DNA from: Candidatus Peribacteria bacterium RIFCSPHIGHO2_02_FULL_49_16
GTDB lineage: Bacteria > Patescibacteriota > Gracilibacteria > Peribacterales > Peribacteraceae
Assembly (NCBI GenBank): GCA_001788955.1
Contig: MFXT01000023.1
Span: forward strand, 1-64,000
Length of the DNA: 64,000 nt
Direction: 5' to 3'
How positions within the stretch are numbered: the first letter of the stretch is position 1; each line of letters begins with the position of its first letter. The notes beneath the pieces are model-generated. The model saw only the letters and a program-made list of their open reading frames with translations. It was not told the DNA's origin and made no database searches. The translations under genes and the position numbers were made by a program. Shown here piece by piece: positions 1 through 10,135 of this stretch.

Positions 1-120
1 GGCAATTTCAAGGTGTTCTCTGGCGGCCAACTGTCGCAGCTCCGTGAGCTGCGCTTCGATGGAGAGCGTCTGACGCTCCTCACTCTCCGATGATTTCCGT
101 GCGTAGAGGAAGTACTTCAT
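1..120 (-). CDS. Serine recombinase/resolvase N-terminus, truncated by window edge
   Basis: Reverse-strand translation from ATG at 120: MKYFLYARKSSESEERQTLSIEAQLTELRQLAAREHLEIA; YARKSSE...R(Q)xLSIEAQ is typical of serine recombinase N-termini. Confidence 0.8.
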   Translation of the reverse strand, partial: MKYFLYARKSSESEERQTLSIEAQLTELRQLAAREHLEIA

Positions 121-146: not shown

Positions 147-222
147 GGCGGCAATGGGCAAACGCTGCGGCCGCAAGCCACGAAGGGGTGGCGCGTACTG
201 CTCCAAAACCCGCGATTTCGCA

Positions 223-332
223 ATTGGCAGGCTGCGTTCGCAAAAATTCGAACAGATTTTAGCACCTCCGGCTGCGGCAGCTGAAATTTTGGGGGCACCA
301 GCCGCCGCAGCTCCGACGACCGGCCGTTTCGG
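223..332 (+). repeat. 110-bp inverted repeat, left copy
   Basis: Matches the reverse complement of 5415-5524 at 108/110 positions by hand alignment; contains internal dyads (GTTCG..CGAAC; GCTGCGGC..GCCGCAGC). Confidence 0.93.
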
Positions 333-385
333 AAAACCGCCAAAGAACCCGGAAAACGATCGGCTCGAACGTTCTTCGGTCCGCT

Positions 386-404
386 AAACGCAAACTTTTT
401 CTCC
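386..404 (-). repeat. 19-bp inverted repeat, right arm (AAACGCAAACTTTTTCTCC)
   Basis: Exact reverse complement of 128-146; lies just upstream of the methylase start at 411. Confidence 0.9.
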
Positions 405-410
405 TCATTC

Positions 411-1748
411 ATGACGGAACTTTACCATGAAGAGATGAGTGTACAAACGTACACCACAACATTTCGTTGGGCACCGCAGCACCAAATTCTGGCAGGAATG
501 GCTAAAGATCGTTATGCTCTGTTCAACTTAGTAAAACGCATTCTTGAATTTTCTATGTACGATAATGCTGTTGCACAAAGGGTCGCTCAACAATACAAGC
601 AAAAACCTCTTACGGATTTTGCGAGTATCAACTCCCGCACTGATTTACATGTACTTAACTTAAATTGGAGAGAGAGGGATTTGCCCGAGTTCATTCGCAC
701 GAAACATGTGCATAGACTTCACCCGTATCTTGGAAAGTTTATCCCACAGCTTGTTGAGATTTTTCTACGGAAGTTCAAACCAGAGGTAGTTTATGACCCC
801 TTCTGTGGTTCGGGAACGACTCTCGTTGAGGCGAATGCTCTAGGTATTGATGCAATTGGAACCGATATATCTGCATTTAACGTTCTGCTTTCCAAAGCCA
901 AAACAGATAAATACGACATCGGTGTTTTGGAAAAAGATATTTACGATATTTTGAGAAGGTTATCGACTTACAAAACGAAATTTGAGGGTGATGCGAGGGT
1001 GAGAAAGATGTTGTCTACAAATAACAGTTACTTGAATGAATGGTTTGCAGATCAAACAAGGAGAGAGCTTTTGTGTTATTCAAAACTCATCAAAGATTAC
1101 AAATACCAAGATCTTATGAGAATCATCCTTTCACGGTCAGCAAGGTCAGCAAGATTAGTTACTCATTTTGACTTGGATTTTCCCAAGAAACCCCAGCGCG
1201 AATCTTATTTTTGCTACAAACACGGGCGTACATGTTCACCAGTGCAAGAAGCTTACAAATTTCTGCACCGTTACACTATTGACACACTAGAGCGCGTGAA
1301 AGATTTTTCCGCAATTCGAACAGAGGCAGATGTGAAAGTCATTCATGGAGACTCAAGGGAGGTACCCCTGCCCAATGGGATCGATATGGTGTTTACCTCA
1401 CCGCCATATGTGGGATTGATCGATTACCATGAACAGCACAAGTATGCGTATGAATTGATCGGCTTGAAAAACAATGAAACAAGAGAGATCGGTGCAGCGA
1501 AAGATGGCCAATCAGAGAGTGCCAGGCAAAAGTACATCGATGGCATTAATCAAGTACTTCTTCACACGAGGGACCACATGGCTCCAAAGGGAATCATGGC
1601 GATTGTCGTGCACGATAAATGCAACCTGTACGATCCGAGCATTGTAGGCTTCAAAGCTGTAGGCAGGGTTGAGCGGCATGTGAATAGACGAACGGGCAGA
1701 AGAAGCGGGGCATTCTATGAGAGTATTCTTATTTGGCAAAAAGTATGA
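411..1748 (+). CDS. Site-specific DNA methyltransferase
   Basis: Motif I DPFCGSGTTLVEA and catalytic TSPPY; overlaps the downstream restriction enzyme ORF. Confidence 0.92.
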   Translation: MTELYHEEMSVQTYTTTFRWAPQHQILAGMAKDRYALFNLVKRILEFSMYDNAVAQRVAQQYKQKPLTDFASINSRTDLHVLNLNWRERDLPEFIRTKHVHRLHPYLGKFIPQLVEIFLRKFKPEVVYDPFCGSGTTLVEANALGIDAIGTDISAFNVLLSKAKTDKYDIGVLEKDIYDILRRLSTYKTKFEGDARVRKMLSTNNSYLNEWFADQTRRELLCYSKLIKDYKYQDLMRIILSRSARSARLVTHFDLDFPKKPQRESYFCYKHGRTCSPVQEAYKFLHRYTIDTLERVKDFSAIRTEADVKVIHGDSREVPLPNGIDMVFTSPPYVGLIDYHEQHKYAYELIGLKNNETREIGAAKDGQSESARQKYIDGINQVLLHTRDHMAPKGIMAIVVHDKCNLYDPSIVGFKAVGRVERHVNRRTGRRSGAFYESILIWQKV

Positions 1749-2557
1749 ATGCAAAGATTCGCAGTGAAATTAAGGGCTTTCTCGAAGGATTCATCCAAGG
1801 GATGATCAATGAGAAGACGGAGAACAATTTCGATCCCAAGAAATTACGACCCCTGAGAAAAAGTTCACCGAAGGGCGACCTGAAACCTTTTCACGAGTCA
1901 TTGCTACCGGATGGTCTACTAACAATCACAGAATTTGAGAGATCTTTTTCAACAAAACTTGGCACCACTTTTGAGGAGTGTGCGAGACTCATCGCCAATG
2001 ATTACCACAAAAGTGCTATCAGGGGTTACAGAGTTAAAGGAACTGTGACAGCAAAATCCATAAAGAGGATTGAAGAGATAGTCAGCAAAATTGGTAGTGG
2101 TGGGATGAAGAAGAATTTTCCCGACTATGTCGAGGAAGTTGTCGGGTACAGCAAAGTCGGAAGAGGAGCCGAACGCACAAGCATCGCCGATCTTTATATT
2201 GAAACGAAGAAAGGTGAGGAGTTGTACTTCGAAATAAAAAGCCCTAAGCCAAACAAGGGACAATGCTTGGAGGCAACAGGACGATTGCTACAAATCCACG
2301 CAATAAGGCATGCACAATATCCTCGCATGAAAGCATACTATGCAATGGCATATAACCCTTACGGGATCGAAAAATCAGTGTACAAGCATAGTTTCGTTGT
2401 GAACTACATGGATGTAAAAAATGAGGTTTTGATCGGCAAAGAGTTTTGGGATCTTATAGGTGGGCCTGGTACTTATGAGGAAGTATTGGGGATATATCAG
2501 GAAGTTGGTCGCGAGAAGGGGCCTGATCTGCTGGATCAGCTTGCTATGGGATATTAG
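1745..2557 (+). CDS. Type II restriction endonuclease, TdeIII-like
   Basis: Directly follows the methylase; PD-(D/E)xK-like tract (IADLYIETKKGEELYFEIKSPKPNKG); overall resemblance to TdeIII family; start at internal Met MNAKIRSEI assumed. Confidence 0.75.
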   Translation: MNAKIRSEIKGFLEGFIQGMINEKTENNFDPKKLRPLRKSSPKGDLKPFHESLLPDGLLTITEFERSFSTKLGTTFEECARLIANDYHKSAIRGYRVKGTVTAKSIKRIEEIVSKIGSGGMKKNFPDYVEEVVGYSKVGRGAERTSIADLYIETKKGEELYFEIKSPKPNKGQCLEATGRLLQIHAIRHAQYPRMKAYYAMAYNPYGIEKSVYKHSFVVNYMDVKNEVLIGKEFWDLIGGPGTYEEVLGIYQEVGREKGPDLLDQLAMGY

Positions 2558-2625
2558 CTGTAATGGTGCCAACAAAGGATTGCGGGATGGTTTTCAGTCC
2601 TCTGTAAGTAAATTACACTGTTCGC

Positions 2626-5379
2626 ATGCATTCAGATGCCACTGGATATTTACGGGAATGGATTGAAAGCGACAAAATACCTCAGTGGCTGCGCAATTTA
2701 GTACATGAGATATTGGCTACACAATCAAGCTTGGAGGATGAGAACGTACTAGAAAGATTGTGTAACGCCCTTCTTATTGAAGAAGGCTTAAAAAGTGCAC
2801 CGCCGGTTGCACATAGACAAGAGATGACCAGTGGTTTAGTCAATCACCCCACTGAGGAACCCGATACGGAGACCAATAGTTCATTCACCATCACATCAAT
2901 CTCCGGCGTGGAAGGTGTGAATTTGTTGCGCAACGACCAAGCGCTAAATTTTAGCCCCTCACTTACGGTTGTTTACGGACTCAATGGGTCGGGCAAAACT
3001 GGTTACTTCCGTGTTCTCAATGCCATATCCGCACGTACGGCTGATAATAAAGAGGAGGACATAATCGGTAACATTTTTCTTGAAGAGCAGGCAGGCCTCA
3101 GTGCGCAGATTGGTTATAAACTGGGCAATGACGCACGGGCATATCATTGGAATGGCGAAAAAGGTGACTCATGCCTCAAAGATTTGGAGGTGTTTGATAC
3201 TGCGTTTTCTAGGGCGCACCTTTCCCGAAAGCAGAATGAGTTTCAAGTTACCCCTTTTCGCACCGGTTTATTTCCCATGGTTGCCGAAGGCATTGATAAA
3301 GTCCAAGCCACATTTGACGACATTGTTAAAGAGCGGCGAGATGAATACCAGAAAATACAGCAAGAGCTTTTGACCAAAGTTTCCCAGAGAGGAGCCGTGC
3401 ATAGTTTTGTTGAGCGTATGGACTTGCTTTCGGAAGAGGAGAGGGCGAACACATTGAAAGGTCTGCTTAAATGGACTACGGAGGATGTAAAAGCGTTAGA
3501 AGATAAAGGAACGGAATATCGCAAAGTCGTTGCCAAGGCTTCAGAGGAAGGTAAGAAGGGGCTACAAGTTCAACTCTCTGATTTAGGAAAGTTGTATGAA
3601 GCGCTTCTCAAAGTTTTGCAGCTCGTGCAAAAAGAGGAGATGAAAAATGCTAAAGATGCAATATCAAAATTGCTTGGTGCCAAAAAGAAAATGGAGGATG
3701 AAGCGCAGAAGTTAGAGGTACTCCAAACAATACCGTCTGGCGAATCGCCAGAGTGGAAAAGTTTTTTGGTAGCTGGAGAAACATATCGCCAAACTGCCGG
3801 TATCAATCCATATCCTTCTTCCGATACAACGTGCCTGTATTGTGGGCAGGATTTGGAGGAGCCGGCGCTTAAGCGTGTTCAAGCGTTCCAATCTTGGTTG
3901 TACAGCAAAGCTAGTGAGGAGTTGTCCACCGCAGAGGAAGAGCTTGCCAAGGCGGCCGCTACTTTCGGAAACGTGTGCACATTAGGACTTAGCGAAGCTG
4001 AAACAGAACGCCTCAAGGAGCTATTAGGCGAGGAAGTTTTTGGGAAGGCAGAGTCCTTTGTCGCCGCATGCGAAGAGCATAGAAAACAGGTTGAAGGGTA
4101 TTTGAAGGCATTGAAGTGGGGACAAGATATTGCCACTCCGGAAGATGGAATCACCCCCGTCATTTCAGGAAAAAAGAGTTCCACTGCCGAGGCGTTAAAG
4201 AATTTTGATTCTTTGGTGAAAGGTGCACAGGAAAAAGAACGCACCCTACAAAAGGAGATGCAGGAACTCCGTGACCGGCAACAATTTACTCTTATGAAAG
4301 AACAAATCCTTAAGTCGATGAAACACATCAGCTGGCTGCAAAGGGCAGAGAATATACAGTTTGAAGGTTACCGGCGCAGTTGTTCATTGCTGCGCACCAA
4401 AGCGGAGCGGGATTTATTGGGCACCACTTTTACAACACGGTTTGAAGTAGAAAAGAAAAAGCTACGCGTCCGCGTTCCTGTTGAAGTGAATATGCACACT
4501 TCCGATGCAGTTTCAGAGCGGCGCAAATCCATTGGCAATTGGAGGGGGAATATTGATGCGATTCTCAGTGAGGGCGAACAAAAGGCCATTTCGCTTGCTG
4601 ATTTCTTTGCAGAGCTTTCACTCAAGCGGAGCAGAGCTCCGATTGTTTTTGATGACCCCGTTACCAGTTTGGATGATGTACGCATGGAGCAGATTGCTAA
4701 GCGCTTGACAGAAGAGGTCAAGGCCGGCCGCCAAATCATCATTTTTACCCACTCTCGCGCCTTCTACTTTGCGCTCATGAGTGCTTTGCGTTGGCATGAA
4801 GATGAGACGTGCTACAAGAATCCCTATGCCAATGGTTGCGCTTTGTGTTGGGATACCGAGAATGTACCAAAGTGCACCAAGAAAAAACGGTGTCACAACA
4901 GTTACCAAATTATGGAATCCGGCGAATCAGTTGGTATTGTTATGCCGGAAGCATATGGAGATAACGTTCCAATTCTCATTGCCAAAACTGTGGAGGCTGC
5001 TGATAGAGGAGAAATATCGCCAGCATGTCATCACCTAAGAGAGGCAATAGAGCATTTTCTTGATGAAGTGGTATTGGCAAAGCTCCGTTCAAAATACTGG
5101 CCAGAGCGCCATGAGATAGATTGGAAAGCTACGGCCAAAGTACGACCTCTTTCTGATGAGGAGCGGGCATTAATTACCGAGGCATGGGGTGTTGCAAGCG
5201 GCAATACCCACCTTTCAGAAAGGCGGGGAAGTGTTTCTTCAACCGACATCAAAGAACATGCATCCAATCTCAAAGAACTCTATGACCAATGCGTCACATC
5301 ACCGGAAATTAAGAGTGTAACTGCAACCAAAGTGCAAGACGTAAAAGATGTTATGGTTAATTGTTCTCTTGAACAATAG
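2626..5379 (+). CDS. AAA_13/RloC-like ABC-type ATPase with zinc-hook CxxC and C-terminal HEPN-like motif
   Basis: Walker A YGLNGSGKTG, coiled coil with CLYCG, signature LSEGEQKAISLADF, Walker B APIVFDDPVTSLDD, H-loop IIIFTHS; C-terminal HHLREAIEHFL. Confidence 0.85.
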   Translation: MHSDATGYLREWIESDKIPQWLRNLVHEILATQSSLEDENVLERLCNALLIEEGLKSAPPVAHRQEMTSGLVNHPTEEPDTETNSSFTITSISGVEGVNLLRNDQALNFSPSLTVVYGLNGSGKTGYFRVLNAISARTADNKEEDIIGNIFLEEQAGLSAQIGYKLGNDARAYHWNGEKGDSCLKDLEVFDTAFSRAHLSRKQNEFQVTPFRTGLFPMVAEGIDKVQATFDDIVKERRDEYQKIQQELLTKVSQRGAVHSFVERMDLLSEEERANTLKGLLKWTTEDVKALEDKGTEYRKVVAKASEEGKKGLQVQLSDLGKLYEALLKVLQLVQKEEMKNAKDAISKLLGAKKKMEDEAQKLEVLQTIPSGESPEWKSFLVAGETYRQTAGINPYPSSDTTCLYCGQDLEEPALKRVQAFQSWLYSKASEELSTAEEELAKAAATFGNVCTLGLSEAETERLKELLGEEVFGKAESFVAACEEHRKQVEGYLKALKWGQDIATPEDGITPVISGKKSSTAEALKNFDSLVKGAQEKERTLQKEMQELRDRQQFTLMKEQILKSMKHISWLQRAENIQFEGYRRSCSLLRTKAERDLLGTTFTTRFEVEKKKLRVRVPVEVNMHTSDAVSERRKSIGNWRGNIDAILSEGEQKAISLADFFAELSLKRSRAPIVFDDPVTSLDDVRMEQIAKRLTEEVKAGRQIIIFTHSRAFYFALMSALRWHEDETCYKNPYANGCALCWDTENVPKCTKKKRCHNSYQIMESGESVGIVMPEAYGDNVPILIAKTVEAADRGEISPACHHLREAIEHFLDEVVLAKLRSKYWPERHEIDWKATAKVRPLSDEERALITEAWGVASGNTHLSERRGSVSSTDIKEHASNLKELYDQCVTSPEIKSVTATKVQDVKDVMVNCSLEQ

Positions 5380-5389
5380 CAAGGGTTTA

Positions 5390-5415
5390 CCGCCAGAGAA
5401 CACCTTGAAATTGCC
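5390..5415 (+). repeat. 26-bp fragment of the recombinase coding sequence (inverted copy of 1-26)
   Basis: CCGCCAGAGAACACCTTGAAATTGCC is the exact reverse complement of window positions 1-26. Confidence 0.9.
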
Positions 5416-5524
5416 CGAAACGGCCAGTCGTCGGAGCTGCGGCGGCTGGTGCCCCCAAAATTTCAGCCGCCGCAGCCGGAGGTGCTAAAATCTGTTCGAA
5501 TTTTTGCGAACGCAGCCTGCCAAT
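5415..5524 (-). repeat. 110-bp inverted repeat, right copy
   Basis: Reverse complement of 223-332 with 2 mismatches. Confidence 0.93.
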
Positions 5525-5579: not shown

Positions 5580-5990
5580 ATGCATCTGAAGATATTCGTC
5601 AGCCTCGGCTTTGCAGTCCATGCTCTTCTCGGCAACTTCTGCATGATGCCGATGGCGTTCGCGCAGGAAATGCCGATGCAGCATGAGGAACACATGGAAA
5701 TGGCAATGACACCATTGTCATTGATGTCGCCGATCCACTGCGATCATTGTGTAAAAGTGCAATCAAGTGGTGATCAATCAGAACGTTCGGTTGGGTGTGC
5801 CGGACATTGCTTTTCTCAAGCAAATGCCACAAAAGTAACTGCACAAAATTTCAACGCGCCGCACGTCGTGGCTGCTTCTCCAATACCGATCACCGTTGCG
5901 ATGACACCTCAAATACTTTCGATAGTCGCTCCACCCGCAACGACACTGCCTTTATCCATTCATATCGACACAATCGTCTTGAGAGTGTGA
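5580..5990 (+). CDS. Small exported His/Met/Cys-rich protein, putative metal-binding
   Basis: Signal-like N-terminus; MPMQHEEHMEMAM, HCDHC, CAGHC; heads the copper locus. Confidence 0.65.
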   Translation: MHLKIFVSLGFAVHALLGNFCMMPMAFAQEMPMQHEEHMEMAMTPLSLMSPIHCDHCVKVQSSGDQSERSVGCAGHCFSQANATKVTAQNFNAPHVVAASPIPITVAMTPQILSIVAPPATTLPLSIHIDTIVLRV

Positions 5991-6028
5991 AAGAAAGGAA
6001 AACCTCTTACCTTTCTTCTCATATATCT

Positions 6029-7396
6029 ATGTCCGAATCCAAACATCTCCACGCAGAAATCCGCATTTCGGGGATGACGTGCGGCAGCTGCGAATTGCTC
6101 CTCGAACGAAAGATAAAAGCGGTATCCGGTGTTATCGATGTCCACGTCAATCATCGCAAGGGCATTGCCGTTATTACTGCACATCCCGATACTCTCCCAT
6201 CATCGCAGGACATTGAAAATATCATCCGAAAGGCAGGGTATGGCATCGGTGACAAAGTAGTACAAGAGACCGCATGCAAGATTATCGAACCGCCCCATCG
6301 CAAGTGGATGGAGATCGGTGGATCGCTCCTTATCATCTTCGCCCTCTACAAGCTCCTCCAAGCTTTTGATCTCGTATCACTTGCTCCTTCAACATCAGGC
6401 ACGCTTTCCATTGGCGGCATCTTTGTCATTGGTCTTGTTGCGGGAACCAGCAGCTGTCTCGCCGTCACGGGCGGACTTCTCCTTGCGCTCGCCGCGAAGC
6501 ACAATGATATCCACCAAGCGGAGACTCCGTGGCAAAAGTTCAAGCCGCTTCTGCATTTTAATGTCGGACGGCTCGCCTCGTATTTTGTTCTCGGCGGCCT
6601 CGTCGGACTCCTCGGCCAGTCAATTACGCTCTCGACGAAAATGTCGGGGTACATGAATATCGTCGTGGCATTCATTATGCTCTGGTTGGCGCTCACGATC
6701 CTCCGGGTCATTGCGAAGGGCAGCTTCCCCATCAGACCTCCAAAGAAACTTTCGCGCTGGATTGCAAACCTCTCGGAGAGTGATCATCCTCTGGCTCCCT
6801 TCACGCTCGGAGCAATGACATTCTTCTTGCCCTGCGGTTTCACGCAGTCATTGCAACTCGTCGCACTCGCATCTGGCAGCTTCCTCACCGGGGCGATGAC
6901 CATGCTTGTCTTCGCATTGGGTACGCTTCCATCCCTTGTAGGCTTGAGTGCGGTTTCCTCCACTGCCAAAGGAACATTCTCCCGTCTCTTTTTGCATTTC
7001 TCCGGCGCACTCGTCCTCATCTTGGCTCTCTTCAACCTCAATAGCGGCTTTGCGCTCACAGGCATCGATCTCTCTCGCATGTTCGTAAGCGCAAACCGGC
7101 AAGCGACCGCTTTGCTCCCAACCGTAAACGACGGCGTACAGGAAGTGGCAATGAAAGTGACATCGTACGGATACGAACCTCGCAATCTCACCATCAAAGC
7201 GGGGATGCCCGTCCGTTGGAAAATCGACGGAACGCAAGCTTTTGGATGTACCAGTGTGATGACTATTCCTTCATTGAATATCTTTAAGCCACTGCATCGG
7301 GGCGAGAATATCATCGAATTCACCGCGCCAAAGTCCGGGAAGCTCGCCTTCATGTGCTCGATGGGCATGGTACGCGGTTCCTTCACTGTTCTTTAA
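6029..7396 (+). CDS. HMA domain - TauE/SafE-like membrane domain - C-terminal cupredoxin-like fusion
   Basis: GMTCGSCE HMA motif; multi-TM core; C-terminal VRWKIDGTQAFGCTSVMTIPSLN...FMCSMGMVRGSFTV; start set at MSESKH. Confidence 0.85.
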   Translation: MSESKHLHAEIRISGMTCGSCELLLERKIKAVSGVIDVHVNHRKGIAVITAHPDTLPSSQDIENIIRKAGYGIGDKVVQETACKIIEPPHRKWMEIGGSLLIIFALYKLLQAFDLVSLAPSTSGTLSIGGIFVIGLVAGTSSCLAVTGGLLLALAAKHNDIHQAETPWQKFKPLLHFNVGRLASYFVLGGLVGLLGQSITLSTKMSGYMNIVVAFIMLWLALTILRVIAKGSFPIRPPKKLSRWIANLSESDHPLAPFTLGAMTFFLPCGFTQSLQLVALASGSFLTGAMTMLVFALGTLPSLVGLSAVSSTAKGTFSRLFLHFSGALVLILALFNLNSGFALTGIDLSRMFVSANRQATALLPTVNDGVQEVAMKVTSYGYEPRNLTIKAGMPVRWKIDGTQAFGCTSVMTIPSLNIFKPLHRGENIIEFTAPKSGKLAFMCSMGMVRGSFTVL

Positions 7397-7417
7397 CCAT
7401 CTCTCCTCTCTTTTCTT

Positions 7418-7558
7418 ATGATTCCCCTCAATTGGCAAGAAATACCGCAGAAACAATCCAGTAGACGTTCCGGACTCTCATCGACGGGCAATCCTTGGTT
7501 CGGTGTCTCGCTGGGACTCATCGGAATCATTGTCGGATATCTGATCGGCACAGTCTGA
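7418..7558 (+). CDS. Small single-TM protein (46 aa), unknown
   Basis: ORF MIPLNWQEIPQKQSSRRSGLSSTGNPWFGVSLGLIGIIVGYLIGTV between two copper genes; absent from ORF track because short. Confidence 0.45.
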   Translation: MIPLNWQEIPQKQSSRRSGLSSTGNPWFGVSLGLIGIIVGYLIGTV

Positions 7559-7586
7559 CTCTTTAACCATTACCACTTTTCCTCTC

Positions 7587-7808
7587 ATGCTTACTACCAA
7601 AGTCTCCATCCCCGGCATTCACTGTGCAAGTTGCGCGGCAATGATTAAGGACGTAAGTGCGGATTTTCCCCAAGTGAAGAATGTCACTGTGGATATAGGG
7701 ACCAAGAATATCACTATAGAACACAGCGACGATTTTGATCTGTCTGCTTGGACAAAGGAGATCGAATCACTCGGTGATACGTATAAAGTTTTCTCGATTG
7801 CCGTATGA
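7587..7808 (+). CDS. Heavy-metal-associated domain protein (CopZ-like)
   Basis: [11 protein letters not shown] motif, 73 aa, stop overlaps the CopA start. Confidence 0.85.
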
Positions 7809-10135
7809 CAAACGTGCAGATTACCCTTGCGATCACCGGCATGCACTGTGCGAGTTGCAGTGCACTCATCACCCGCAAGCTCAAGAAGACTGCGGGGGTT
7901 GAGGAAGCGAATGTGAATTACGGTGCGAATAAAGCTCGCATCCGCTTCGATCCTGGCAAAGTTGACGAACAAGGTCTCATCGCCGCCGTGAAAGCGGCAG
8001 GTTACGGTGCGGCGATCGCGAATGAAAAGGACAGAGAGGCGGATAAAAAGCGGAGACTTGGGGAGATCGCCACCTATCGTTGGAAGTTCTGGATCGGTTT
8101 GCTCCTTAGTCTTCCAATGCTCTTCTTCATGGCACTGACGTTCGTACCGGAAAAGATGGTACCGCTTGCCATGAGCGCAGTCGAAGGGTGGATGGGAGTC
8201 GTTTCTCTTATTCTCGCAACACCTGTGCAATTCTGGCTTGGCTATGGCTTTTACCGTGGCTTCTGGTCAAGTCTCAAAATGGGAACATTCAGCATGGACA
8301 GTCTCATCGCGATCGGGACGTCCACTGCCTACTTCTACAGTCTTTGGAACTTCATCGTGCATGTCTTTGAGCACGGATCGCTCCTTGGGGAAGTCCACGA
8401 TCTCTACTTCGAGGTCGCGGCATTGCTCATCACGTTTGTCCTTCTTGGTAAATGGCTGGAGGCACGTGCGAAGGGTTCTACGAGTGAAGCGATCCAAAAA
8501 CTCATGGGGTTGCAGGCAAAAACTGCACGCATCCTCAAGGATGGACAACAAATGGATGTGCCGATTGAAGAAGTTCAGATGGGAGATATTGTTGTTGTCC
8601 GTCCCGGTGAAAAAATTCCTGTGGACGGCACTGTGACGAAAGGACTCTCATCCATCGATGAATCGATGCTTACCGGTGAAAGTATTCCCGTGGAAAAGAA
8701 GGAAGGAGACAAAGTATTCGGCGCAACGATGAACGGGCATGGGAGTATCGAGTTCCGCGCGGAAAAAGTGGGGAGTGAGACCGCGCTCGCACAGATCATC
8801 CGCTTCGTGGAGGAAGCCCAAGGAAGTAAGGCGCCGATACAGGCATTTGCCGATTGGGTATCTTCGTGGTTTGTTCCCGCCGTGATCGGCATCGCCATCC
8901 TCACGTTCGTTATCTGGATGTTCCTCGGTGCAACGGTAATTTTTGCTCTGTTGGCATTTGTCTCTGTAATTGTTATTGCTTGTCCATGTGCGCTGGGGCT
9001 CGCCACGCCCACAAGCATCATGGTCGCAACGGGCAAAGGTGCGGAATATGGCATCCTTATTCGCGGCGGCGAGCCGCTGGAGGCTGCGAAGAGAATCAAT
9101 ACGATAGTGTTTGATAAGACGGGGACATTGAGTAAAGGGAAGCCGGAGGTAACAAACATCGTTGCCTTTGAAGAATCAGAAGACGATGTCTTAAGAATTG
9201 CTGCCAGCTTGGAACAAGGTTCTGAACATCCACTCGCAGAGAGTATCGTGAAACACGCGAGGGAGAAGAGAACGACACTCGCTGCCGCCGAACATTTCAA
9301 GGCTATTCCCGGTCATGGCGTGGAAGGATCCATCGATGGAAAGAAGTACTTCCTCGGGAACCGCAAACTCATGCAGAAGATCGCCGTCTCTGAATTGGAA
9401 GCCGAAGAGCAGATGCAGGCACTCGAGGATGAGGGGAAGACCGCGATGTTGCTTGCTGATGAGAAGCACATCCTCGGTATCATTGCCGTTGCCGATATTC
9501 TCAAGGAAACTTCAAAAGAGGCCGTCGATCAACTCAAGCGAATGGAGATCGAGGTCTATATGATCACCGGAGACAACAAGCGTACAGCGCACGCGCTCGC
9601 GCGGGAGGCAGGTATCGAAAATATCCTTGCGGAAGTGCTTCCGGAAGATAAGGCAAACGAAGTCAAAAAGCTGCAATCCGCAGGTAAAAAGGTCGCGATG
9701 GTGGGCGATGGAATCAACGACAGTCCCGCGCTTGCGCAGGCCGATCTTGGAATTGCGATGGGTTCTGGCACAGACATTGCCATGGAGACCGGTGGGATTG
9801 TGCTTGTGAAAAATGATCTGCGCGATGTCGTGACCGCGATCCGTTTAAGCCGGGAGACGGTGAAAAAAATTCATCAGAACATGTTCTTCTCACTTTTTTA
9901 CAATGTCATCGGCATTCCGATTGCCGCCCGCGCTTTTGCATTTGCAGGGTTCATTCTGCGTCCGGAACTTGCCGGACTCGCGATGGCTTTTAGCTCTGTC
10001 TCTGTTGTCACGAACTCACTCCTTCTTAAAGGGTTTCATCCGCAAAAGCGAAACTGGGTATCGGATGTTGCGCCGATCATCATGGCCGCCGGCTTCACTG
10101 CCCTCTTTATTCTCTTTGCCAAGATCAGTTCCTGA
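7805..10135 (+). CDS. copA: Copper-translocating P1B-type ATPase
   Basis: N-terminal [11 protein letters not shown] ([13 protein letters not shown]), [13 protein letters not shown] motif ([11 protein letters not shown]), [10 protein letters not shown]. Confidence 0.96.

Follow-up and report, generated by a model that had tools for sequence, protein, structure and literature searches.

At the left end of the 64,000-nt stretch of Candidatus Peribacteria DNA analysed here (the window), a restriction-modification (R-M) island makes up the right-hand portion of an integrative element, and an assembly gap splits the serine integrase gene of this element. Its layout is shared by over 50 sister loci, found in Patescibacteria and in a few further phyla, and combines an inverted internal attachment site (attP) with short integrase-linked pieces at fixed places and a fold that runs through the integrase gene. 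We judge it somewhat probable that such a tRNA-targeted integrative element goes through a stage of single-stranded DNA, in either polarity, and that it does so probably by natural transformation. The architecture and the fold are presented as observations, from which we infer the route of transfer; transfer as single-stranded DNA is the best explanation that we can offer, with its chances standing at about even.

A repeat search recovered, at the same coordinates, the near-identical 110-bp inverted repeat that a first-pass annotation had placed around the island: positions 223-332 and 5415-5524 form an inverted pair of 110 nt that is 98% complementary, with 5082 nt between its arms. The genome holds just these two copies, and a reading of the 110-mer as a common dispersed repeat was therefore rejected. 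What the annotation missed is that the 110-mer represents just one half, P′, of an attachment site. Two smaller inverted pairs given by the repeat search, 1-31 with 5385-5415 and 127-151 with 381-405, were also absent from that annotation and mattered more than the 110-bp pair.

The serine recombinase that had been noted at the left edge is there, its first 40 codons lying at 120-1 (minus strand), where tblastn places codons 1-40 of a serine integrase on positions 1-120 with a Pfam Resolvase match that is weak because the gene is truncated. Base 1 of the window is base 1 of its contig (C23), so this edge is an assembly break and not a biological one. A 420-bp probe from it had a single other match in the genome, C14:22689-22793, on a contig where a tRNA-Glu is followed by the 3′ portion of a serine integrase gene that the contig end cuts off. 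By tblastn, integrase residues 1-40 lie on C23 and residues 98-488 on C14 in compatible orientations, and for this reason C14 and C23 most likely join across about 170 missing bases. Relative to the intact sister L045 the window's integrase has a 7-nt deletion, which, unless it is a sequencing error, may have left this copy inactive.

The element as a whole is ordered tRNA.core.P, integrase, inverted P.core.P′, cargo, and P′.core.chromosome. Of the two attachment-site arms, P (79 bp) is formed by the 3′ end of the integrase gene and P′ by the 110-mer. On C14, attL reads tRNA..GGGGCTGCCA followed by ATTGCG; the internal site (reverse complement of 152-332) reads P′..GCAGCCTGCCA followed by ATTGCG; and the right end reads P′..GCAGCCTGCCA followed by ATCGACTC. 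Read across these cores, the internal site is a complete attP (P′.core.P), inverted, between integrase and cargo. Its P arm occupies 152-230 (plus strand) as an inverted copy, at 95%, of the integrase 3′ end at C14:22689-22767; its core, read as TGCCA and equal to the 3′ end of the target tRNA, lies at 225-229 (minus strand); and its P′ arm is the left repeat of the first-pass annotation (223-332, minus strand). The right repeat (5415-5524, plus strand) is the outer P′ arm; it closes the element on the right and contains the attR core, TGCCA, at 5518-5522. The core common to attL and attR is identical with the end of the target, and the integrase gene adjoins the tRNA, in the window by way of the probable link between C14 and C23. 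The same three att sites were found in ten sister elements, where the core is again a tRNA 3′ end, mostly ending CCA. As for the class of integrase, sister L031 has the Resolvase, Recombinase and zinc-ribbon families of Pfam, all three above cut-off.

Sites without the element are available for two sisters: for L030, a tRNA-Lys lies beside the far flank in genome G043, and for L031 a tRNA-Lys near truB is free of the element in G053 and G451. An empty site for the window's own tRNA-Glu was searched for in relatives and was not found. Taken as a mobile R-M element linked to a recombinase, as it had been proposed to be, the cassette is well supported. At the same tRNA-Glu, the same-genus genome G001 has a different serine recombinase (L129 1794-3071, 425 aa) with no excess folding, which indicates that competing elements share the site.

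The cargo of the window consists of an N6/N4 DNA methyltransferase (411-1748, plus strand; PF01555), a TdeIII-family restriction endonuclease (1745-2557, plus strand, with ATG at 1745; PF09520, E 2e-61) and an AAA_13-like ATPase with a CxxC motif (2626-5379, plus strand; best PADLOC model PDC-S06, E 8e-110). The methylase, the endonuclease and the AAA_13 likeness of the ATPase had all been named before; as to the suggested kinship to RloC, which the ATPase may or may not have, no RloC model stood among the hits, of which PDC-S06 was the best and one was a partial match to PrrC (E 7e-8). With PF09520 at 208 bits against a cut-off of 27 and the PF01555 methylase adjoining, the pair is predicted to act as a TdeIII-type R-M system. 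Among the sisters, the larger cargos are R-M systems of Eco57I-like, MvaI/BcnI, CfrBI, type I and type III types, Vsr with a cytosine methylase, and TdeIII in the window and in Schleiferia, the two TdeIII endonucleases being 34% identical. Parcubacteria elements usually carry a single, unrelated gene, judged from ORFs only. A reverse transcriptase (PF00078, E 3e-22) stands beside a type III R-M system in the cargo of L060 (3638-5041) and is possibly a defence gene. To the right of attR, window positions 5580-10135 hold a heavy-metal cluster with one HMA + DsbD_2 + cupredoxin protein, as well as an ORF resembling a copper P-type ATPase.

Four inverted integrase-linked pieces of 16-30 nt lie at fixed places beside the attP arms. 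Counted from the integrase ATG, the originals are U at about -43 to -13, N1 at about +94 to +120, N2 at +138 to +157 and C at about +1335 to +1361, with P starting from +1362; the internal site always reads U′-C′-N2′-P′.core.P-U-ATG and the outer end P′-N1′. In the window, N1 (1-26, minus strand), which ends at nt +120, has its inverted copy N1′ at 5390-5415 (plus strand), and U (127-151), just upstream of the ATG, is inverted as U′ at 381-405 with 24 of 25 positions matching. N2′ (20 nt, 333-352, plus strand) corresponds to integrase nt +138-157, the KTAKEP codons, by a position and length as in the sisters, its original falling in the assembly gap. C′ (25 nt, 353-377, plus strand) was placed by a genome match, as a copy of the integrase sequence adjoining the P arm (C14:22769-22793).

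Among the 63 loci with enough upstream sequence, N2 is present in 51, C in 58, U in 52 and P in 53; with thresholds set before shuffling, shuffled loci gave none. U pairs at 99.1% within an element and at 29.9% between diverged loci (38 distinct sequences in 53 loci), and P at 98.0% within loci against 34.2% between them. The non-coding piece U is thus unrelated between elements and near-perfectly paired within each, and such a match within elements together with free divergence between them indicates that complementarity itself has been kept. Mismatches in the pieces comprise 34 G.T and 49 A.C. Decayed pieces are seen in some elements (L055, L065 and L074). A different arrangement is found at L070 (2564-2759), where a tRNA-Trp immediately precedes the integrase start and the pieces are all missing.

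The integrase coding sequence itself bears long-range helices that covary and that control genes lack. Synonymous-codon conservation peaks at N1-N2 and at C/P, plus a few other stretches. Among 78 integrases, 78 antiparallel Watson-Crick window pairs reached the covariation threshold of at least 12, and four controls (parallel, mirror and two false-pairing schemes) gave 0 window pairs at threshold 12, on which ground phylogenetic inflation of the covariation was rejected. The strongest helix, H1, pairs nt 172-192 with nt 1316-1336, starting just after N2 and ending at C. Since H1 joins N2 and C, the contiguous U′-C′-N2′ strand can form a single backbone by pairing with N2, C and U; as far as pairing in the sequences tells, the integrase body could branch off this backbone between N2 and C, and the attP helix between C and U. 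The far end of that helix lies between N1 and N2. The predicted helices cross one another, so that the set is pseudoknotted.

Fold stability was compared with synonymous shuffles in 12 integrases, all of which showed an excess, with z from -1.8 to -9.0 on the sense and from -3.3 to -12.9 on the antisense strand; these values are rough, as 12 shuffles were made per gene. The integrase fragment of the window gave z of -3.1 and -5.2 against dinucleotide shuffles. Neighbouring genes used as controls were mostly near 0, the strong outlier being a second, more distant integrase of the family (L107 15256-16812; z -12.5 sense, -17.6 antisense), which has the strongest folding excess of all genes scored. 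Several cargo genes, the window's included, showed no excess, and some single-gene cargos did. Serine integrases of phages and plasmids, and likewise the G001 recombinase, were mostly near 0 on both strands, with the exception of Mimir87 (z -4.4 antisense), and the fold as a generic property of serine integrases was rejected on the phage and plasmid integrases. A search of Rfam found nothing in the region; within the window it hit just two tRNAs, both elsewhere. A conserved fold through the integrase gene and attachment sites is, on this comparative evidence, well supported. Mismatches in the supported helices are nearly balanced between G.T (355) and A.C (348), and we draw from this a sharp inference: both DNA strands, rather than an RNA, seem to be under selection, and either may be the single-stranded form.

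Both the folded gene and the short repeated pieces suggest a structure of single-stranded DNA rather than a switch by DNA inversion. The first-pass annotation had suggested that the cassette might be invertible, and a double-stranded switch, in which the cargo or the integrase module is turned round at an inverted attP pair, by the integrase or by homologous recombination, would fit the long near-identical inverted repeats that flank both modules as recombining repeats would. A second orientation, as expected of a phase-variable locus, was sought among the loci examined and none was seen, and the inversion cassette was rejected on this account. Moreover, U′, C′ and N2′ stay beside the internal attP, the pieces being so placed in 51-58 of 63 loci, N1 was never found at the internal attP, and the 3′ end of the integrase gene faces the tRNA. 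The normal partner of attP for a serine integrase is attB and not a second attP, and a switch leaves the short pieces and the intragenic helices unexplained, so that we hold it very improbable. An assembly artefact at the contig end could be suspected from the start of the window at a contig break and from the many sister contigs that break at the same repeat; the layout is nevertheless found inside long contigs and in many independent assemblies, including that of the isolate Schleiferia thermophila DSM 21410, and we give this possibility next to no weight.

Two other explanations are to our minds unlikely, and equally so. Control at the RNA level, by a structured transcript or by antisense pieces that fold the integrase mRNA and control its translation, would account for U just before the start codon, for the complementarity of the upstream U′, N2′ and C′ to the integrase mRNA, and for excess fold stability, which is found on both strands. 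It is disfavoured by the mismatch balance (355 against 348), since G.U pairs would be expected to persist in an RNA under selection; N1′ is placed at the far cargo end, outside a simple leader, and the cargo genes usually point away from the integrase, so that a single transcript would need to span both. The internal attP may instead be the remnant of a tandem or inverted double insertion with its identity kept by gene conversion, in line with the pieces following the cyclic order of the integrase gene (N2-C-U-cargo-N1), which is what a cargo side derived by deletion from an inverted copy would show, and with the ease with which long repeats convert. Pieces of 16-30 nt far from their partners are however poor substrates for conversion, yet they match at 97-99%; conversion cannot make short covarying helices inside one gene; and identical positions recur in very diverse hosts.

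Under the preferred reading of transfer as single-stranded DNA, the integrated element would be taken up as a single strand together with flanking chromosome, most likely by natural transformation. The attL (core-P) and attR (P′-core) would anneal side by side to the internal attP, which would act as a splint, and this pairing would rebuild a double-stranded attP and close the element. The paired 3′ end would prime second-strand synthesis, the integrase would then be made, and it would insert the element into a tRNA gene of the recipient. Neither excision in the donor nor an excisionase nor transfer genes would be needed, which matches elements made of an integrase and about one gene. Serine integrases exchange both strands; a folded single strand that recombined directly would leave hairpin-ended chromosome arms and thus break the chromosome, and on this reasoning the synthesis of a second strand would have to precede integration. 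A comEC gene, coding for the DNA-uptake channel of natural transformation, lies on the same contig (window 27412-28206; PF03772, E 1.7e-50). Saccharibacteria are naturally competent (PMC10633639), and folded single-stranded att sites are used by CTXphi and integrons (PMC3089051). A type IV secretion system of Patescibacteria has been the subject of a report (PMC12102498), and conjugation may be an alternative route of transfer.

The enzyme and its tRNA target are of known kinds. Like other tRNA-targeted large-serine-integrase elements, those described here have an integrase with Resolvase, Recombinase and zinc-ribbon domains, a core at the tRNA 3′ end, cargo between attL and attR, and empty sites in relatives; they differ in the third, complete and inverted internal attP, in the fixed-site integrase pieces and folded integrase gene, and in that no conjugation or excisionase gene is evident in the smallest members. 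In CTXphi and integron attC sites, a single strand that holds two inverted att copies can fold so that they anneal to one double-stranded att (PMC3089051), and the copies of the window and its sisters can form such a site. Here, however, the recombinase is a serine and not a tyrosine recombinase, the att copies lie at least 1.5 kb apart, the fold runs through a whole coding gene, and pairing shows no strand preference (G.T 355 versus A.C 348).

IS200/IS605 transposons are also small and travel as single-stranded DNA whose ends are folded, a likeness to the route proposed here, but they use an HUH transposase and have neither attP nor tRNA target. SCC cassettes (CcrA/CcrB) are likewise mobile, and the integrase is distantly similar to Ccr (E 6.5e-22), at 77.9 bits against a cut-off of 900; tRNA targets, a single integrase, the internal attP and the fold set the present elements apart. 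The yeast 2-micron plasmid also has two unique segments parted by inverted recombination sites, whereas here the element is integrative, the sites are serine-integrase attP and no isomers were seen. In the open-access literature that we searched, neither this architecture nor the folded gene was found described.

It is conceivable, though a little short of an even chance, that these elements form a widespread mobile class that crosses distant bacteria as folded single-stranded DNA, in need of neither excision nor conjugation, with the internal inverted attP as the splint that restores the attachment site and the integrase gene as a conserved DNA scaffold. If true, this would be gene movement needing only one protein and a DNA fold, and a protein-coding gene would be under strong selection for its DNA fold on both strands. 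It would also account for the gain of R-M systems and other genes by ultra-small Patescibacteria across phyla without conjugation.

Eight related loci were found in genomes of the same family, and, among 381 genomes from the phylum, 105 have the integrase. Scanning genome contigs yielded 80 loci, and 530 were reported as encoding a relative, in collections that overlap and in which some loci are one element counted twice. They are mostly from Patescibacteria, and come also from the isolate Schleiferia thermophila and from MAGs of other phyla. Over integrase and internal attP, L047 from Patescibacteria and L053 from Schleiferia share 94% DNA identity, and their cargos do not align beyond the element ends. 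L051, whose MAG bears the name Thermodesulfovibrio, shares 99.5% identity with L053; MAG names may reflect binning errors, whereas the Schleiferia genome is that of an isolate. The smallest sisters consist of the integrase and 0.6-1.3 kb, usually one gene, so that no conjugation or replication genes are evident in them. A phage or plasmid origin was rejected, as no phage or plasmid record exceeded 30% identity among the best matches listed. Longer or rearranged repeats, outside the standard layout, are seen at L100, L102, L105, L114 and L117. Upstream of the element in L047, positions 577-860 hold a degenerate second copy of the element ends, perhaps from an older insertion at the same site.
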